Source: Methanobrevibacter sp.
Lineage (GTDB): Archaea; Methanobacteriota; Methanobacteria; Methanobacteriales; Methanobacteriaceae
NCBI RefSeq assembly: GCF_017447225.1
Contig: NZ_JAFSNZ010000032.1
Coordinates: forward strand, 1 to 64,000
DNA: 64,000 bases
Direction of reading: 5' to 3'
Part shown: one piece after another, positions 529 to 35,743 of the stretch
Layout: every line of letters starts with the position of its first letter
Numbering within the stretch: the first letter of the stretch is position 1
Position numbers and translations under genes: made by a program
Notes under the pieces: model-generated
Database searches by the model: none
What the model saw: only the letters and a program-made list of their open reading frames with translations
Told to the model about the DNA's origin: nothing

Positions 529-3500
529 ATGGATTATTTTGATAGATTAGAAGCTGAAACACATGCATTATACGAAATAGCTAATGAAGCTCGCTCAAAA
601 GGTTTAGATGTAGAAACTAAAACCGAGGTTCCATTAGCAAAGGATTTAGCTGAAAGAGTTGAAGGGCTTGTCGGTCCTGAAGGTGTAGCTAAGCGTATCA
701 AGGAATTGGAAAAAGATTTGACAAGAGAAGAAGTGGCTTTTGAAATAGCTGCAGAAATTGCTTCTGGCAAATTTGAATTGACTGGTGAAAAAGCAGAATA
801 TGATGAAGAGCAAAGATGCGACCAGGGATTAAGAACAGCACTTGCTATCTTAACAGAAGGAGTAGTAGCAGCCCCACTGGAAGGAATATCCCAGGTAAGA
901 ATTAAAAATAATTTCGATTCAACAAAATATATCGCCGTATATTTCGCAGGACCTATCAGAAGCGCAGGAGGTACTGCTGCTGCACTTGCAGTATTGCTTG
1001 GAGACAAAATCAGAAGGGCAATCAATATTGATGAGTTCAAACCAATCGAAGATGAAATCGAACGTTATGTTGAAGAAGTTGAGCTTTACGAATCAGAAGT
1101 TACAAATCTTCAGTATTCACCTACTCCTGAAGAGGTTCGTTTTGCGGCAAATCACATTCCTGTTGAAGTTACAGGTGAACAGACTGATGCTGTTGAAGTA
1201 TCACACAGAGATCTGGAACGTGTAGAAACAAACAACATACGCGGTGGAGCTTTGCTGGCTATGGTTGAAGGAGTTATCCAGAAATCCAAAAAAATCCACA
1301 AAATCTCAAATAAATTAGGCTTGAATTGGGAATGGCTTACAGAATACTCAAAACCTAAAAAGGAAGAATCATCGGATTCATCCGATGAAAGCGAAATTGT
1401 CCATGAACCTAAATATATTCAGGATATTATTGGAGGAAGACCTGTTTTAGGACATCCTTCCGAAAAGGGAGGATTCAGATTAAGATATGGACGCTCCAGA
1501 AATACCGGCCTTGCAACTATGGGAGTTCATCCGGCAACAATGGCATTGCTTGAGTTTTTAGCCGTCGGAACACAGCTTAAAATTGAATATCCGGGTAAGG
1601 GAAATTGTGTTGTTCCGGTTGATTCTATTGAAGGTCCGACTGTTAAACTCAAAAATGGTGACGTAGTTATAATCAACAGTGTAAAACAGGCCAGAGAGCT
1701 TAAAAAGGATGTTGTTGAAATATTATTCTTAGGAGACATGCTGGTTGCTTTTGGAGAATTTTTAAGAAACAACCAACCATTGTATCCATCAGGATGGTGT
1801 GAAGAATGGTGGATTGGGCTTTTAAAGGAAAGCAAAAACTATTCTGAAGATGATGACCTTGATTTAGGCCGTCTGGAATATGACTATCTTCCGGCAAAAG
1901 AAGCTTTTGAATTATCCAAAAAATATGATTTACCCCTTCATCCGAAATACACATACTGCTATAATGACGTGACAATTGAAGATTTAAATGCATTATATGA
2001 TTTGTTAATGGAATGCAAGGATACATATAGTCTCAATGAAGGAATAAAATTAAATTTAACATATGCAAAAAGAACACTTGAAATAATTGGTGTTCCTCAT
2101 ATTGTCCGTGATGATAAAATAATTATTGATGCAGATAACTCTTATGCGCTGCTTGCAACAATAGTCGACAGATTGCCTAAAAGGGATTCCACTATTGAGG
2201 CTTTAAATGAGGTTTCAAATATAGAAATCAAAAACAAAGCTCCGGCATACATCGGTACCCGTGTAGGAAGGCCTGAAAAATCAAAAGAAAGACTGATGAA
2301 ACCTGCACCACACGGTTTATTCCCAATCGGAAACTATGGAGGAGCTCAAAGGCTAGTTGCCAATGCAGCTAAAAAAGGCAAAATTGACGTTGACCTGTCA
2401 AGAAGGAAATGTTCAAACCCGGATTGCAGATTAATGACATTTAACTCAATATGCCCTAAATGCGGCTCACCTACTGAAATGGGAAAACCTGAGCATAAAA
2501 AGATTAATATCTCATCAATGCTTAAGAAGGCATCAGATAATGTTGGAGTCAGAAAAGTCGACAAGTTCAAAGCAGTTGTAGGTATGATTTCAGAGTCAAA
2601 GCTTCCTGAACCATTGGAAAAAGGAATATTAAGATGTAAAAATGAAGTGTTCACATTTAAGGACGGTACAATCCGTCACGATTCCACAGACTTGCCGCTG
2701 ACACATTTTATCCCTAAAGAAATAGGAGTCAGTGTTGAAAAGCTCCTGGAAATGGGATATGAACATGACTGTTACGGCAAACCTATAGAAAATGAAGACC
2801 AGATTATAGAGCTTAAGGTGCAGGATGTCGTGATTTCAAATAACTGTGCAGAATATTTGGTAAATACAGCAAAATTCATTGACGATGAACTTACAAGATT
2901 TTATGGAATGGACAGCTTTTACAATGTTAAAACAAAAACAGATCTGATAGGTCATCTGATAGCTGGTCTTGCTCCCCACACATCAGCAGGAGTATTGGGT
3001 CGTATTGTAGGATTTACAAAGGCATTAGGATGTTATGCCCACCCATATTTCCATTCTGCAAAACGTAGAAATTGTGACAGTGACGAAGATGCGATAATGC
3101 TTCTTTTGGATGCTTTAATTAACTTTTCAAAAACATACTTGCCTAATACCAGAGGAGGAAGTATGGATGCTCCATTGGTTTTATCTTCACGAATTGACCC
3201 TGAGGAAATCGATGACGAATCACATAACCTGGACATTTATGAGCGCTTCCCTGTCGAGTTTTATGAAAAGACAAAAGATCCTTTAAAACCTGCTGACGTA
3301 TTGGATTATATTGATAATGTCGAGATGCATCTGGGAACTCCTGAGCAGTATGAGGGACTGATGTTTTCCCACCATACCTCAAGCATTCATGCGGGACCTA
3401 CATTATGTCTTTACAAAAGACTGCCGTCAATGAAAGAAAAGGTTGAAGCCCAAATCGAGCTTGCCGAAAAGATTAGAGCTGTTGACCAGAGAGACGTTGT

Positions 3501-3825
3501 GGAAAGAGTACTGTCTTCCCACTTCCTGCCGGACATTATGGGTAACTCCAGAGCATTTTCCAAACAGAAAGTGAGATGCACAAAATGCAATTCAAAATAC
3601 AGAAGAATTCCATTGTCCGGAAAATGCAGCAAATGTGGAGGAAATCTGATTCTTTCAGTTTCAAAAGGATCTGTTCAAAAATATCTTGGAATCTCCCAGG
3701 ACCTTGTTAACAGATACCCTGTATCACCATACCTGAAACAGCGTTTGGAAATTCAGGAATTTGGAATTAATTCATTGTTTGAAAGTGACAAGTCAAAACA
3801 AAGTTCTTTAGATGTATTTTTCTAA
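529..3825 (+). CDS. polC: DNA polymerase II (family D) large subunit DP2
   Basis: This is the catalytic subunit of the archaeal replicative polymerase PolD, which works with the DP1 exonuclease subunit. The 1098 residues are the usual length for an intein-free DP2. The catalytic acidic motif NCDSDED lies at about residues 848-854, with candidate metal ligands Asp850 and Asp852. Two zinc-ribbon Cys clusters are visible, one near residue 630 (CSNPDC with CPKC) and one near 1020 (CTKC with CSKC). The protein ends QSSLDVFF, which fits a C-terminal PCNA-interacting (PIP) box. The start follows GGCGATATT, and a TATA-like element lies near 422-430. DP1 is not in this window. Confidence 0.97.
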   Translation: MDYFDRLEAETHALYEIANEARSKGLDVETKTEVPLAKDLAERVEGLVGPEGVAKRIKELEKDLTREEVAFEIAAEIASGKFELTGEKAEYDEEQRCDQGLRTALAILTEGVVAAPLEGISQVRIKNNFDSTKYIAVYFAGPIRSAGGTAAALAVLLGDKIRRAINIDEFKPIEDEIERYVEEVELYESEVTNLQYSPTPEEVRFAANHIPVEVTGEQTDAVEVSHRDLERVETNNIRGGALLAMVEGVIQKSKKIHKISNKLGLNWEWLTEYSKPKKEESSDSSDESEIVHEPKYIQDIIGGRPVLGHPSEKGGFRLRYGRSRNTGLATMGVHPATMALLEFLAVGTQLKIEYPGKGNCVVPVDSIEGPTVKLKNGDVVIINSVKQARELKKDVVEILFLGDMLVAFGEFLRNNQPLYPSGWCEEWWIGLLKESKNYSEDDDLDLGRLEYDYLPAKEAFELSKKYDLPLHPKYTYCYNDVTIEDLNALYDLLMECKDTYSLNEGIKLNLTYAKRTLEIIGVPHIVRDDKIIIDADNSYALLATIVDRLPKRDSTIEALNEVSNIEIKNKAPAYIGTRVGRPEKSKERLMKPAPHGLFPIGNYGGAQRLVANAAKKGKIDVDLSRRKCSNPDCRLMTFNSICPKCGSPTEMGKPEHKKINISSMLKKASDNVGVRKVDKFKAVVGMISESKLPEPLEKGILRCKNEVFTFKDGTIRHDSTDLPLTHFIPKEIGVSVEKLLEMGYEHDCYGKPIENEDQIIELKVQDVVISNNCAEYLVNTAKFIDDELTRFYGMDSFYNVKTKTDLIGHLIAGLAPHTSAGVLGRIVGFTKALGCYAHPYFHSAKRRNCDSDEDAIMLLLDALINFSKTYLPNTRGGSMDAPLVLSSRIDPEEIDDESHNLDIYERFPVEFYEKTKDPLKPADVLDYIDNVEMHLGTPEQYEGLMFSHHTSSIHAGPTLCLYKRLPSMKEKVEAQIELAEKIRAVDQRDVVERVLSSHFLPDIMGNSRAFSKQKVRCTKCNSKYRRIPLSGKCSKCGGNLILSVSKGSVQKYLGISQDLVNRYPVSPYLKQRLEIQEFGINSLFESDKSKQSSLDVFF

Positions 3826-3906: not shown

Positions 3907-3930
3907 ATTGTTCGTAACAATACGAACAAT
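3907..3930. promoter_or_regulatory. Perfect inverted repeat matching the MsvR box, nrdD promoter
   Basis: ATTGTTCGTA (3907-3916) and TACGAACAAT (3921-3930) are exact reverse complements separated by ACAA. The core TTCGTA-N4-TACGAA is the motif I recall for binding by the methanogen redox regulator MsvR, whose gene lies at 33094-33852. The 3' arm touches a TATA box (TATATATA, 3930-3937), so the TFB recognition element falls inside the repeat. A protein bound here would be expected to block TBP/TFB loading. The symmetry is seen directly; the MsvR assignment comes from the known motif plus the presence of msvR. Confidence 0.75.
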
Positions 3931-3937
3931 ATATATA
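3930..3937 (+). promoter_or_regulatory. TATA box of nrdD
   Basis: TATATATA sits about 98 bp upstream of the nrdD ATG and directly after the inverted repeat. With usual archaeal spacing, transcription would start near 3958-3963, giving a leader of roughly 75 nt. It is the only strong TATA element in the 209-bp gap after polC. Confidence 0.6.
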
Positions 3938-3964
3938 CAAGGTAAACTAATATTATAATTAAGT

Positions 3965-4007
3965 GATTAGTAGTAGATAGATTGCTCTATCTCTTATTTT
4001 ACTAATC
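3965..4007 (+). promoter_or_regulatory. Two-tier hairpin in the nrdD 5' leader
   Basis: GATTAGTA (3965-3972) pairs with TACTAATC (4000-4007). Inside it, AGATAGA (3975-3981) pairs with TCTATCT (3986-3992) around a TTGC loop. The structure would lie at the very 5' end of the transcript predicted from the TATA box. It ends 27 nt before the ATG and leaves the GGTG ribosome site at 4025 free. It may affect mRNA stability or bind a regulator; no known riboswitch class is recognised. Confidence 0.45.
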
Positions 4008-4034: not shown

Positions 4035-6353
4035 ATGGAAAAAAGTTCAGAAATTGCAAATAACTTAAATAAATCCGTTAAAATCAATGTAGAAAAAAAT
4101 AACGGAATTAAAGAAAGATTCAGTTATGAAAAATTATTAAAATCATTAGTAATGGTTGAAACCCCATTCTTTGAATCTGATAAAATTGTAGCTACTGTAG
4201 TATCCTCATTATACGATGGAATCACTACAAAAGAAATCAAAAAAATAGTTCACGAATGTTTAGAAGACATCGACGGTGAAATCGCCAACAAATACTTAGC
4301 AAGTACCCAATTAAAAGTACGTACTTCAAGAGACACAATCGAAGCATTCGACTTATCCAGAATTGCAAATACATTAATTGAAGAAACCGGTGCTAGCCAA
4401 GAAACCGCTTTTGAAATAGCAACCGAAACCTGGAAAGAACTCAAAAAATTAAACGTAGAATACTTAACCGCTCCAATGATCAGGGAAATAGTCAACACCA
4501 AATTAGTTGAATACGGACTTGAAGACTTAAGAAGCCGTTACACCCGTTTAGGTATTCCTGTTTACAACATTACCTCTTTAATCGAAAACGGTAACAGAGA
4601 TAATGCAAACATGATTCACAACCCGGAAAGTATCCACAAACATGTAGCAGACGAAGCATTAAAACAATACGCATTATTAAAAATGCTTCCGGCAAACTTA
4701 GCTGATGCACACATGTCCGGAGATATCCACATTCACGATTTAGAATTCTTCGCAGGAAGACCATTAAACTGTATGCAACACGATATCAGAACTTTCATCA
4801 AATACGGACTTAAAGTAGACGGTACCGGTGACCACACTTCAATCGCAGGTGCACCAAACCACATGGAAACTTTAATGAACCACACTGGTGAAATCATGCT
4901 TGCAGCACAGCAGAACATGTCCGGTGGACAAGGAATGTCTCTCTGGAACGTATTTGTAGCACCATTTGCAAGAGGAAGAAGTTATGATGAAATCAAACAG
5001 TCCGTACAAATGCTTGTATACAACCTAAACATGGCTTACGCAGCACGTGGATCACAGGTACCTTTCACAAGTATGGCATTGGAATTCGGAGTTCCTAACT
5101 TCCTAAAAGATGAAACCGCATACGGACCAAAAGGCCAGGTAGTTGGAACCTACGCTGATTTCGAAGAAGAAACCAGATTAATCCAAAGAGCATTTACTGA
5201 AACTTTACTTGAAGGAGATAACGAAGGAAAACCTCATTTATTCCCAAATACCATTTACACATTACGTGAAGAAACTATGACCAGCGAATATGAAGACGAC
5301 ATTCGTTTAGTACATGAATTATCTGCCAAATATGGTTCATCTTACTTCGTAAACATGTTAGCTGACTACAGAGGAGACATGGCTAACTACATGGGTTGCA
5401 GAACCTGTTTACAAGACAACTGGACCGGTGACTGGGATCAAGACTGTTTAAGAACAGGTAACCTCGCATACGTAACCTTAAACCTCCCAAGAATCGGATA
5501 CCAATCCAAAGATGAAACCCAAGTATTCGAATACTTAGATGAATACATGGACTTAGCTACCGAAACATTAATGCTTAGAAGAGAACAAGGATTAAAATGT
5601 TTAAATGACTTCCACATTTTACCATTCTTAAAACAAAAAGTAGCTGAAGATTCCTACTACAGAATCCAAAACTCAACATTATCCTTTGGTTTTGTAGGAC
5701 TTAACGAAATGTTATTATCCTTATTCGGAGAAGGTATTGAAAACCCTGATGCAAACAAATTCGGTATCAAATGTCTTGAATACATTAACGAAAGAGCAAA
5801 TCAATTAAAAGAAGAAACTGGACTCAGATGGTCTGTACTTCAAACTCCTGCTGAATCAACAGCTTACAGATTTGCAACACTCGATAAAAAACAATTCGGA
5901 GACCAAGCTATCGTTCAGGGAGACGGAAATGCAAACTACTACACCAACTCATCTCACGTGCCAGTAGACACTTCCGCATCATTAATTGAAAAAATCAAAA
6001 TTGAAGAACAATACCACCCATTAACTCCTGGTGGACACATCTTCCATGCATTCATGGGTGAATCATACTCCGATCCGGATTCATTAATGAGTTTAACCAA
6101 TAAAATCGCAAGAAAATCAGATATCGGTTTCTGGGCTTACAGCTCAGCACTAAGTTTCTGTTTAAAATGTAAAACTTTAATGAAAGGACTAAACCATGTT
6201 TGTCCTACCTGCGGTGAAAGTGAAGATGTAGAATGGTACGACAGAATTACCGGATACGTACAACAAGTAGGTCGTGCAAAATCCGCATCCGGTGGTTGGA
6301 ACCCAGGTAAACGTCAAGAATTAATTGACAGAAGAAGATTTGAAGATAACTAA
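4035..6353 (+). CDS. nrdD: Anaerobic (class III) ribonucleoside-triphosphate reductase
   Basis: It reduces ribonucleotides to deoxyribonucleotides using an oxygen-sensitive glycyl radical. The 772 residues have an N-terminal ATP-cone (about 15-105), then the barrel with YMGCRTC (Cys455, Cys458), a C-terminal zinc site CLKC plus CPTC (709, 712, 723, 726), and the radical site RITGY with Gly740. The start follows GGTG at 4025. Codon use favours C-ending and AAC/TTC codons, as in highly expressed genes. No nrdG activase gene is in this window, so the activase must be encoded elsewhere. The promoter carries a putative MsvR operator and a structured leader, and the gene ends in a hairpin terminator. 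Confidence 0.97.
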   Translation: MEKSSEIANNLNKSVKINVEKNNGIKERFSYEKLLKSLVMVETPFFESDKIVATVVSSLYDGITTKEIKKIVHECLEDIDGEIANKYLASTQLKVRTSRDTIEAFDLSRIANTLIEETGASQETAFEIATETWKELKKLNVEYLTAPMIREIVNTKLVEYGLEDLRSRYTRLGIPVYNITSLIENGNRDNANMIHNPESIHKHVADEALKQYALLKMLPANLADAHMSGDIHIHDLEFFAGRPLNCMQHDIRTFIKYGLKVDGTGDHTSIAGAPNHMETLMNHTGEIMLAAQQNMSGGQGMSLWNVFVAPFARGRSYDEIKQSVQMLVYNLNMAYAARGSQVPFTSMALEFGVPNFLKDETAYGPKGQVVGTYADFEEETRLIQRAFTETLLEGDNEGKPHLFPNTIYTLREETMTSEYEDDIRLVHELSAKYGSSYFVNMLADYRGDMANYMGCRTCLQDNWTGDWDQDCLRTGNLAYVTLNLPRIGYQSKDETQVFEYLDEYMDLATETLMLRREQGLKCLNDFHILPFLKQKVAEDSYYRIQNSTLSFGFVGLNEMLLSLFGEGIENPDANKFGIKCLEYINERANQLKEETGLRWSVLQTPAESTAYRFATLDKKQFGDQAIVQGDGNANYYTNSSHVPVDTSASLIEKIKIEEQYHPLTPGGHIFHAFMGESYSDPDSLMSLTNKIARKSDIGFWAYSSALSFCLKCKTLMKGLNHVCPTCGESEDVEWYDRITGYVQQVGRAKSASGGWNPGKRQELIDRRRFEDN

Positions 6354-33093: not shown

Positions 33094-33852
33094 TCAGTTG
33101 AACGGTTCAACTTCGAAAACACATTTACCATCACCCATAGTATAACATTGAATTTCAATGACACTGACAGGTGAATTGAAGTATTCTGAAAACAGTGCTT
33201 CAAAAATTCCGGTATCCAAAAAGCATGCCGGTTTACCTGTTTTTGGCAATAACTGACATTCAAAACAGTCAAGGGCAGTGATTTTTATAATATCTCCAAC
33301 TTCAAAGAAAACTCTGCCTAAACCTTTGGCTTCCCAGAATGAAGCGATATTTTCTAAAAATACATCCAAATCGTCATCATACAATGAATCAAAAATAGAT
33401 TTGCCTATGCGAACACCTGTTGCCTGAAGGACAGGGTCAATATTTATGCCCTCCTGAATGAGCATGGATCTTAATGTGTGGAATAATAAAACTGTGAAGT
33501 CACCATCATCATTAACAATATTGTCAATTAAATAATCTTTTTGGGTTTCTTCAATTTCTTTTTGTTCTGATAAGTTAACGGAACCCAAATATTTGGAATT
33601 AATATAAAAAATCTTTTTTCTATTATCTTCAGGATGCATTTTAAATGATACAATACCTGATTCTCTTAAACTTTTCAAATGGACAGAAACAGTAGATTTT
33701 GATTTACCTGTATTTGAGACAATTTCATCAAATTCCATTTCGCTATCTCTTAGCATTTCTAGAATTGTAAGTTTTACTGGACTTTTTACAACATTTACGC
33801 CAATATTTTTTTCGGGATTAGAGAAAATTTGTATTGGTTTTTCATCTGCCAT
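33094..33852 (-). CDS. msvR: Redox-sensing transcription regulator MsvR
   Basis: MsvR is a methanogen-specific regulator that controls the F420H2-oxidase oxidative-stress operon. The 252 residues have an ArsR-like winged helix-turn-helix (about 24-92; LEMLRDSEMEFDEIVSNTGK and STVSVHLKSLRESG) and a C-terminal V4R domain (about 155-250). V4R cysteines are at 196, 199, 210, 236 and 244, matching the redox-active set described for the family. It is divergent from fpaA with a shared 230-bp promoter region, the same arrangement as in Methanothermobacter. Confidence 0.92.
   Translation of the reverse strand: MADEKPIQIFSNPEKNIGVNVVKSPVKLTILEMLRDSEMEFDEIVSNTGKSKSTVSVHLKSLRESGIVSFKMHPEDNRKKIFYINSKYLGSVNLSEQKEIEETQKDYLIDNIVNDDGDFTVLLFHTLRSMLIQEGINIDPVLQATGVRIGKSIFDSLYDDDLDVFLENIASFWEAKGLGRVFFEVGDIIKITALDCFECQLLPKTGKPACFLDTGIFEALFSEYFNSPVSVIEIQCYTMGDGKCVFEVEPFN
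33096..33112. terminator. Hairpin at cbiL/msvR convergent ends
   Basis: AGTTGAAC (33096-33103) and GTTCAACT (33105-33112) are perfect complements with one base between. The repeat overlaps the msvR stop (33094-33096) and codes for the last msvR residues. No strong T-run follows, so a terminator role is less certain here. Confidence 0.35.
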
Positions 33853-34082
33853 TTTGCACCTCTTAATAGAAAATTTTAATTTTTAAGGTTAATAAAATTA
33901 ACTAAAAAAATATACAAAATAATAGTAAATCCATAAAAAAAGCGATGAATATTATTTAATGTTCACTACAAAAAACGAACAGTTCAGAAAAACATAATCT
34001 ATATATATTTTCTTTAACATAAATATAATAAATTCATATGTCATTCGTATGGATTCAAACAAATTTAATTGAGGAATATATT
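33853..34082. promoter_or_regulatory. Divergent msvR/fpaA control region
   Basis: The fpaA TATA box is CTATATATAT at about 33999-34008, 75 bp before the ATG. Just upstream is GTTCACTACA ending in CGAAC (33961-33980), an imperfect match to an MsvR box with 2 extra spacer bases. Downstream of the TATA lies TTCGTA-tgga-TTCAAA (34044-34059), one perfect half and a 4/6 second half with the expected 4-nt spacer. These could be the autoregulatory and operon operators. The half-sites are seen directly; the function is inferred. Confidence 0.5.
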
Positions 34083-35309
34083 ATGAAAGCTAATGCTCAA
34101 AAAATAGCTGAAGGAGTATACTGGATCGGTGTTCTTGACTGGGATTTAAGAAGCTACCACGGATACACCTTAGATGGAACCACATACAATGCATACATTG
34201 TATTTGGAGAAGATAAAGCAGCAATTATTGATAATGCTTACCCTGGAAAAACAGCTGAAATGATGGCACGTATTGATGATGCATTTGCACAAGAAGGCAG
34301 AGACGTAAAAGTTGACTACATCATTCAAAACCACGTTGAAAAAGACCACTCCGGTGTTTTATATGACTTACACAAAAGATTCCCTGAAGCACCGATTTAC
34401 TGTACCGAAATTGCAGTAAAAGGACTTTTAAAACACTATCCTAAATTAGAAGGTGCTGAATTCATAACTGTAGGAACCGGAGACACATTAGATGTTGGCG
34501 GAAGAACCTTAGCATTCTTAGATGCATTCTTACTCCACTGGCCTGACAGTATGTTTACCTTACTTGCAGACGATACCGGAATTCTATTCCCTAACGATGC
34601 ATTCGGTCAACATTTATGTTACACCAAAAGATTCAGTGACGAAATCCCTGAATACGTATTAATGGATGCTGCTCAAAAATTCTACGCAAACTTAATTACC
34701 CCACTTTCCAAATTAGTGCTTAAAAAATTAAATGAAGTAGTAGAATTAGGATTACTCGAACAAATCAAAGTAATCGCACCATCCCACGGTCAAATCTGGA
34801 CTGACCCGATGCAAATTATTGGAGCATACCAAAACTGGGCAACCGGTGTATGTGAAGACAAAATCACAATCATCTACGACACAATGCACTACTCAACCCA
34901 AACTATGGCTCACGAAATTGCTGAAGGTGCAATATCTGAAGGATACGATGTTGAAATCTTCTTCTTACACGAAGATGAAAGATCAGAAATTGTTAAAAGT
35001 ATCCTAACCAGTAAAGGAGTTGCAATCGGAGACCCAACCATTAACGATGTTCCATACCCAAGTATCGGAGACATCATGTACTACCTGAAAGGTCTTTTAT
35101 TCAACAGAACAGGCATTGAAAGAAAAGCTGTTACCTTCGGTTCCATGGGTGGAAGAGGAGGAGCTCCTGATAAACTCGCTGAAGAATTAGGTAACTGCGG
35201 ATTCGATATAATTGACACTCAAGAAATTTATTTCGTACCAACCGATGACGAAAACGAAGCAAGCTATGAATTAGGTAAAAAACTAGCACAAGCTTGTAAA
35301 GAATTATAA
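34083..35309 (+). CDS. fpaA: F420H2 oxidase (flavodiiron protein FpaA/FprA)
   Basis: It reduces O2 to water with electrons from coenzyme F420H2, protecting the methanogen from oxygen. The 408 residues have an N-terminal metallo-beta-lactamase-like diiron domain with the HVEKDHSG ligand motif (about 82-89) and LLHWPDSM, followed by a C-terminal flavodoxin domain starting [10 protein letters not shown]. The ATG at 34083 is chosen from the GAGG site at 34071 and the family start [14 protein letters not shown]; an upstream in-frame ATG at 34038 adds 15 residues of non-family sequence. It is cotranscribed with the rubrerythrin gene. Confidence 0.95.
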
Positions 35310-35329: not shown

Positions 35330-35743
35330 ATGGTAAAATACGAACATGAAATTGGTATTACAAAAGGAACCCCTGTAGAAAAATTTGTAGCAGGAAACTT
35401 TGAAGGAGAAACAAACGAAGTAGGTATCTACTTAGCAATGTCCAGACAAGCTTCCAGAGCAGGCTATGGAGAATTAGCTGAAGTATTCAAAAGATTAGCA
35501 TGGGAAGAAGCTGAACATGCAGCAAGATTCTGTGAAATGAACGGAATCATCAAAGATGACCTCAAAGCTAACATCGAATGGATGATGGGCGGAGAAAAAA
35601 TGGCTAACGCTGAAAAAAGAGAAGCTTCCGAAAAAGCTCAAGAAGCTGGAATCGAAACCGCTGCTGATTTCTTCAGAGAAAGTTCCAAAGACGAAGGTCG
35701 TCACTACAAAATCTTAGAAGGCATCTTAGAAAGATACTTCTAA
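35330..35743 (+). CDS. rbr: Rubrerythrin-like diiron protein without rubredoxin domain
   Basis: This ferritin-like four-helix protein of 137 residues probably reduces hydrogen peroxide. The diiron ligands are visible in [10 protein letters not shown], in EEAEHAARF (Glu-x-x-His) and in [11 protein letters not shown]. The usual C-terminal rubredoxin FeS4 domain is missing, so it needs a separate electron donor. It lies 20 nt after fpaA, preceded by AAAGGAGATG, and a strong hairpin terminator follows. No rubredoxin gene follows, unlike the fpaA-rlp-rub operon known in Methanothermobacter. Confidence 0.92.

Follow-up and report, generated by a model that had tools for sequence, protein, structure and literature searches.

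A conserved inverted repeat at the nrdD promoter of Methanobrevibacter is a likely operator for the redox regulator MsvR

INTRODUCTION

The sites described for the methanogen redox regulator MsvR follow the motif TTCGN7-9CGAA or TTCGTAN4TACGAA, with boxes that lie over the BRE/TATA region or the transcription start site (PMC3729527). On boxes 2 and 3 of the Methanothermobacter thermautotrophicus msvR/fpaA region, the cognate protein (MthMsvR) stops TBP/TFB (PMC3729527). The Methanosarcina acetivorans protein (MaMsvR) binds when reduced and is released by H2O2; it was shown to be bound only at its own promoter, the oxidative stress gene cluster that was tested being unbound, and the motif alone was insufficient for binding at rpoK (PMC3729527). 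No nrd gene is named in the main text of that article (PMC3729527). In the literature surveyed, which did not extend to the primary 2010 MsvR paper, MsvR was bound at no targets other than msvR itself and the fpaA operon, and no report assigning nrdD or deoC to the MsvR regulon was found.

Bacterial NrdR control offers a second comparison. There too a dedicated operator lies on an nrd promoter, and the regulatory outcome is similar in principle to that proposed below, but no NrdR was detected in the family genomes searched (0/40). The sequence of the NrdR box is also unlike that of the nrdD operator. We know of no ribonucleotide reductase control described in archaea that lack NrdR.

RESULTS AND DISCUSSION

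A perfect inverted repeat adjoins the predicted nrdD TATA box

The window analysed is a 64,000 nt stretch from Methanobrevibacter sp. (contig NZ_JAFSNZ010000032.1). The product of its nrdD gene is a class III reductase with an ATP cone, as judged from Pfam and TIGR02487 matches. The gap between polC/DP2 (529–3825) and nrdD contains a putative operator, 82 bp past the polC stop codon:

3907–3930, no strand: operator, the perfect inverted repeat ATTGTTCGTA-ACAA-TACGAACAAT, from its sequence and its conservation in 57/57 genomes of the genus
3931–3938, plus strand: predicted nrdD TATA box, ATATATAC, following the operator with no gap
4035–6353, plus strand: nrdD, anaerobic ribonucleoside-triphosphate reductase with ATP cone (PF13597, PF03477; TIGR02487, 562 bits)

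The two arms (3907–3916 and 3921–3930) are 10 nt each, 100% complementary and separated by an N4 spacer. The core, TTCGTAACAATACGAA (3911–3926), has the TTCG-N8-CGAA form and thus falls within the TTCG-N7-9-CGAA inverted repeats of MsvR operators, and the segment that is invariant in the genus, GTTCG-N8-CGAAC, covers 3910–3927. The sequence at 3931–3938 is suitably placed to serve as the nrdD TATA box, so that the operator, which ends at 3930, would lie at the BRE/TATA edge. This resembles the auto-regulation of MaMsvR, where TTCGN7-9CGAA lies directly upstream of BRE/TATA (PMC3729527). The GC content of the 17-bp flanks, as counted, is ∼24–29%; for MaMsvR, flanks below 20% worked while those above 40% did not. 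An initial annotation of this DNA had reported a perfect 24-bp inverted repeat abutting the nrdD TATA box; both elements are present as described, the end it gave (3937) taking in the TATA box, and the motif it gave for MsvR, TTCGTA-N4-TACGAA, is the published one (PMC3729527).

The repeat is the sole exact TTCGTAN4TACGAA in the whole 2.16-Mb assembly. By estimate, ∼0.2 perfect 10-bp palindromes with one given spacer are expected in 64 kb of AT-rich DNA; a lone palindrome is therefore not very rare, and is no proof of function.

The operator is conserved upstream of nrdD

All 57 genomes of the genus with enough sequence upstream of nrdD carry GTTCG-N8-CGAAC in the nrdD promoter. The ten outer positions are kept without exception, the centre drifts, and a TATA-like sequence starts 2–6 bp after the operator in every case (57/57). 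Dinucleotide shuffles gave 0 matches. The check that the initial annotation had proposed, the presence of the motif before nrdD in relatives, thus came out in its favour. In 33 genomes of the genus, two tandem modules ∼55 bp apart each contain an operator and its own TATA, indicating that operator and TATA form one unit. The case for operator function comes from this conservation (57/57 promoters versus 0 matches in shuffles) and not from the single sequence; on these grounds 3907–3930 can be considered a genuine operator beyond reasonable doubt.

The exact TTCGTAN4TACGAA motif was found 39 times in the genus, 35 of them just upstream of nrdD and four elsewhere. The reversed pattern, used as a control, gave 27 matches, a total close enough that only the position of the motif is informative. 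The remaining exact sites in relatives were singletons beside unrelated genes. A search of the source genome with TTCGN7-9CGAA was uninformative (35 sites versus 77 for the control), and the 105 matches found among 2.9 million viral contigs were judged to be at chance level.

Beyond the genus, a more drifted form of the nrdD element occurs in genera g3, g6, g9 and part of g13. In the Methanosphaera-like g12 (G113–G117, G122 and G126) the inverted repeat is replaced by TACGAAC direct repeats ∼19 bp apart, and in all seven Methanothermobacter-like genomes the everted half-sites TACGAACAGT lie upstream of nrdD. Genera g10, g11 and g15 have MsvR, with no recognisable site at nrdD.

The source genome encodes a cognate MsvR

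The initial annotation had also placed msvR, fpaA and a rubrerythrin gene within the window, which domain matches bear out:

33094–33852, minus strand: msvR, with an ArsR-type HTH and a V4R domain (PF01022, PF02830)
33974–33985, no strand: everted half-site pair AACGAACAGTTC between msvR and fpaA; the main-clade counterpart is AAACGAACAGTTCGTATT
34043–34060, no strand: degenerate inverted box ATTCGTATGGATTCAAAC (3 of 14 mismatches), close to where fpaA transcription should start
34083–35309, plus strand: fpaA, an F420H2 oxidase-type flavodiiron protein (flavodoxin and ODP domains), divergent from msvR; start codon selected by comparison with relatives
35330–35743, plus strand: rubrerythrin gene, after fpaA (PF02915)

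The operator and a cognate MsvR (33094–33852) therefore occur in the same genome. The protein has the N-terminal ArsR-type HTH, the C-terminal V4R domain and the conserved V4R cysteines of its family, with C196, C199, C210, C236 and C244 invariant in 10 family orthologues. It shares 42% identity with MsvR from G149, which we take to be M. thermautotrophicus dH, and the recognition helix KSKSTVSxHL is the same in both. In G149, ATTCGATGATATACGAAC lies between msvR and fpaA, with the geometry of the nrdD operator. The MthMsvR boxes (PMC3729527) and the nrdD operator thus share half-sites, the TTCG-N8-CGAA spacing and a location on core promoter elements, and msvR is divergent from fpaA both in M. 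thermautotrophicus and in the window genome. The two differ in that the site described here is a predicted one, its target is nrdD, and it takes the form of one perfect palindrome or of tandem modules, where M. thermautotrophicus has three boxes.

The msvR/fpaA promoters of the source genome contain only the degenerate inverted box and the everted half-site pair. Relatives have N8 boxes at fpaA (GTTCGAATTAGTACGAAC in G009, GTTCATATCCATACGAAC in G013 and, in G038, ATTCGTATGGATTCGAAC, which is less degenerate than the box at 34043–34060). In the main clade of the genus, where fpaA was apart from msvR in the genomes examined, the everted ACGAACARTTCG is found at msvR and at the unlinked fpaA; the form at both promoters is ACGAAC-A-[AG]TTCG or near it. 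Across the genus, 32 of 52 msvR promoters have the everted arrangement and none of the 52 has the N8 inverted one. The shuffle comparison for fpaA was built on related genomes and overstates their independence.

Many genomes of the main clade have, in addition, a second MsvR-like protein (G077:C12, G045:C10, G063:C17 and others), mostly 45–49% identical and with an altered recognition helix, KSKASVSMHL; the source genome has one MsvR only. No MsvR-motif site was seen upstream of the three MsvR paralogues examined. One genome, G006, has the nrdD site while no MsvR was found among its 300 contigs, perhaps owing to an assembly gap. NrdR was ruled out as the nrdD regulator: none of 40 family genomes gave a match above the cut-off, versus 9 of 14 control genomes.

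deoC belongs to the same site family

A genus-wide search with the 18-mer, allowing one mismatch, returned two more recurrent genes: deoC, which codes for deoxyribose-phosphate aldolase, and a DUF2097 gene that neighbours nrpR. A GTTCGTATNNATACTAAC-like site, differing at no more than 2 of 14 positions, precedes deoC in 30/30 genomes examined, always downstream of a TATA-like sequence and 18–25 bp before the ATG (deoC starts were taken from tblastn). The source genome has a weaker deoC site, ATTCGTATATTAACTAAC. No candidate regulator gene recurred among the targets.

Published RNA-seq data bear on three of the predicted genes. Among 2280 genes of M. ruminantium M1, 147 responded to lauric acid, and fprA2 (log2 +3.58), deoC (+5.12) and nrdD (+1.47) all rose, as did fprA1 and rbr2 (PMC5816558). 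Judging from where it lies in the genome, fprA2 (mru_0131) is expected to be the fpaA linked to msvR. Two FprA genes are present in G019, taken here as M. ruminantium M1; the one that is not fprA2 is consistent with mru_1507. The deoC and fpaA sites of M. ruminantium are weak. That fprA2, deoC and nrdD move together is a post hoc observation, made under a stress that was lauric acid and not oxygen.

MsvR as the probable reader of the nrdD operator

Taken together, the data suggest that MsvR is likely to be the reader of the nrdD operator (probability about 0.7–0.75). The initial annotation had read the repeat as an MsvR operator, and its motif, its place at the BRE/TATA edge, its conservation and the link to fpaA and msvR speak for this, while the degenerate sites at the genome's own msvR and fpaA speak against it, as do the genera that have MsvR but lack a recognisable nrdD site (g10, g11 and g15) and the insufficiency of the motif alone for MaMsvR at rpoK. 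We put at about 0.7 the fuller reading, that of a repressor operator at which most likely MsvR would block TFB/TBP and be released by a redox signal; here the protein, the repression and the signal are carried over from work on the Methanothermobacter and Methanosarcina proteins. The mechanism we favour, by inference, is repression of nrdD under redox control. Reduced MsvR would bind GTTCG-N8-CGAAC and keep TFB/TBP off the adjoining nrdD BRE/TATA; oxidation of the V4R cysteines would alter binding and release transcription. Expression of nrdD, deoC, fpaA and msvR would then rise as oxidants deplete the NrdD enzyme.

The identity of the protein is where another explanation comes closest. A different winged-helix repressor, sensing dNTPs or nucleotides, might act on nrdD and deoC, leaving MsvR the everted msvR/fpaA sites only. 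Both targets are deoxyribonucleotide genes, main-clade geometries split into inverted (nrdD/deoC) and everted (msvR/fpaA), and G006 keeps its nrdD site without an MsvR match. Within the genus the inverted form is mostly that of nrdD and deoC and the everted one that of msvR and fpaA, so a second protein with similar half-sites is possible. The split fails across lineages, however: inverted N8 boxes occur at fpaA in G009, G013 and G038 and at msvR/fpaA in M. thermautotrophicus, and everted half-sites at nrdD in the Methanothermobacter-like genomes. Since nrdD and msvR/fpaA can each have either arrangement, depending on the lineage, a single protein is the simplest solution. The co-induction of fprA2 with deoC and nrdD, and the lack of a recurrent regulator gene among the site targets, also count against a separate repressor, which we regard as rather unlikely.

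Ptr2-type activators recruit TBP/TFB from just upstream of BRE, and an operator upstream of the nrdD TATA would suit MsvR or another factor acting in that manner. The deoC element, which follows the TATA-like sequence and precedes the start codon, is a better fit to repression, and MthMsvR blocks TBP/TFB (PMC3729527); activation thus seems improbable. A transcription terminator, or a chance palindrome in the polC–nrdD gap, might be suspected from the 82 bp that separate the repeat from the polC stop codon and from the near-chance frequency of the motif elsewhere. No T-tract follows the repeat, though, and the invariant halves with a drifting spacer, the fixed TATA distance, the duplication together with the TATA and the recurrence at deoC leave such an origin a negligible chance; the terminator reading was rejected.

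With MsvR as reader, nrdD and deoC would, judging by their sites, probably be a new set of targets for an already known regulator. That one regulator links the deoxyribonucleotide metabolism of the Methanobacteriales to redox state is a more tentative idea: synthesis (nrdD), breakdown (deoC) and detoxification genes would share an operator whose half-sites are rearranged between inverted and everted forms from lineage to lineage. As nrdD and deoC both belong to the site family, a nucleotide-linked signal is possible, and the V4R domain might also read it. With an operator common to nrdD, deoC and fpaA, these genes form a candidate regulon in methanogens that are major inhabitants of gut and rumen. 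Such a regulon would account for the joint rise of fprA2, deoC and nrdD when M. ruminantium meets lauric acid, a methane inhibitor. A switch conserved in this way suggests that DNA precursor supply may be controlled jointly with oxygen detoxification.

Further sites and the nrdD leader

The DUF2097 gene (PF09870; L353, L395, L396, L398 and L403) has the one-mismatch 18-mer upstream in many genomes of the genus; its neighbours are another DUF2097 gene, one encoding a GXGXG domain, and nrpR. The source genome contains a second intact GTTCG-N8-CGAAC core (G000:C111:15768–15785; L512:1269–1286), ∼280 bp upstream of a gene that, reading its sequence, we take to encode a cdc48/VAT-type AAA ATPase; it is also present in G038 and G040. 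Both G036 and the source genome have a GTTCGTA-type site shortly downstream of a ribosomal-protein-like gene (L393, L406), presumably that for S3Ae from its sequence.

The nrdD leader can form a hairpin shortly after the expected transcript start:

3975–3992, plus strand: inner stem, AGATAGATTGCTCTATCT
3965–3972 and 4000–4007, plus strand: outer stem, GATTAGTA and TACTAATC

The position of the stem is kept in relatives while its sequence drifts. It reads GAGAG..CTCTC in most species and GATAG..CTATC here, with the extra outer stem (3965–4007). In 49 genomes of the genus the mean stem score was 9.5, versus 6.7 in mononucleotide shuffles.
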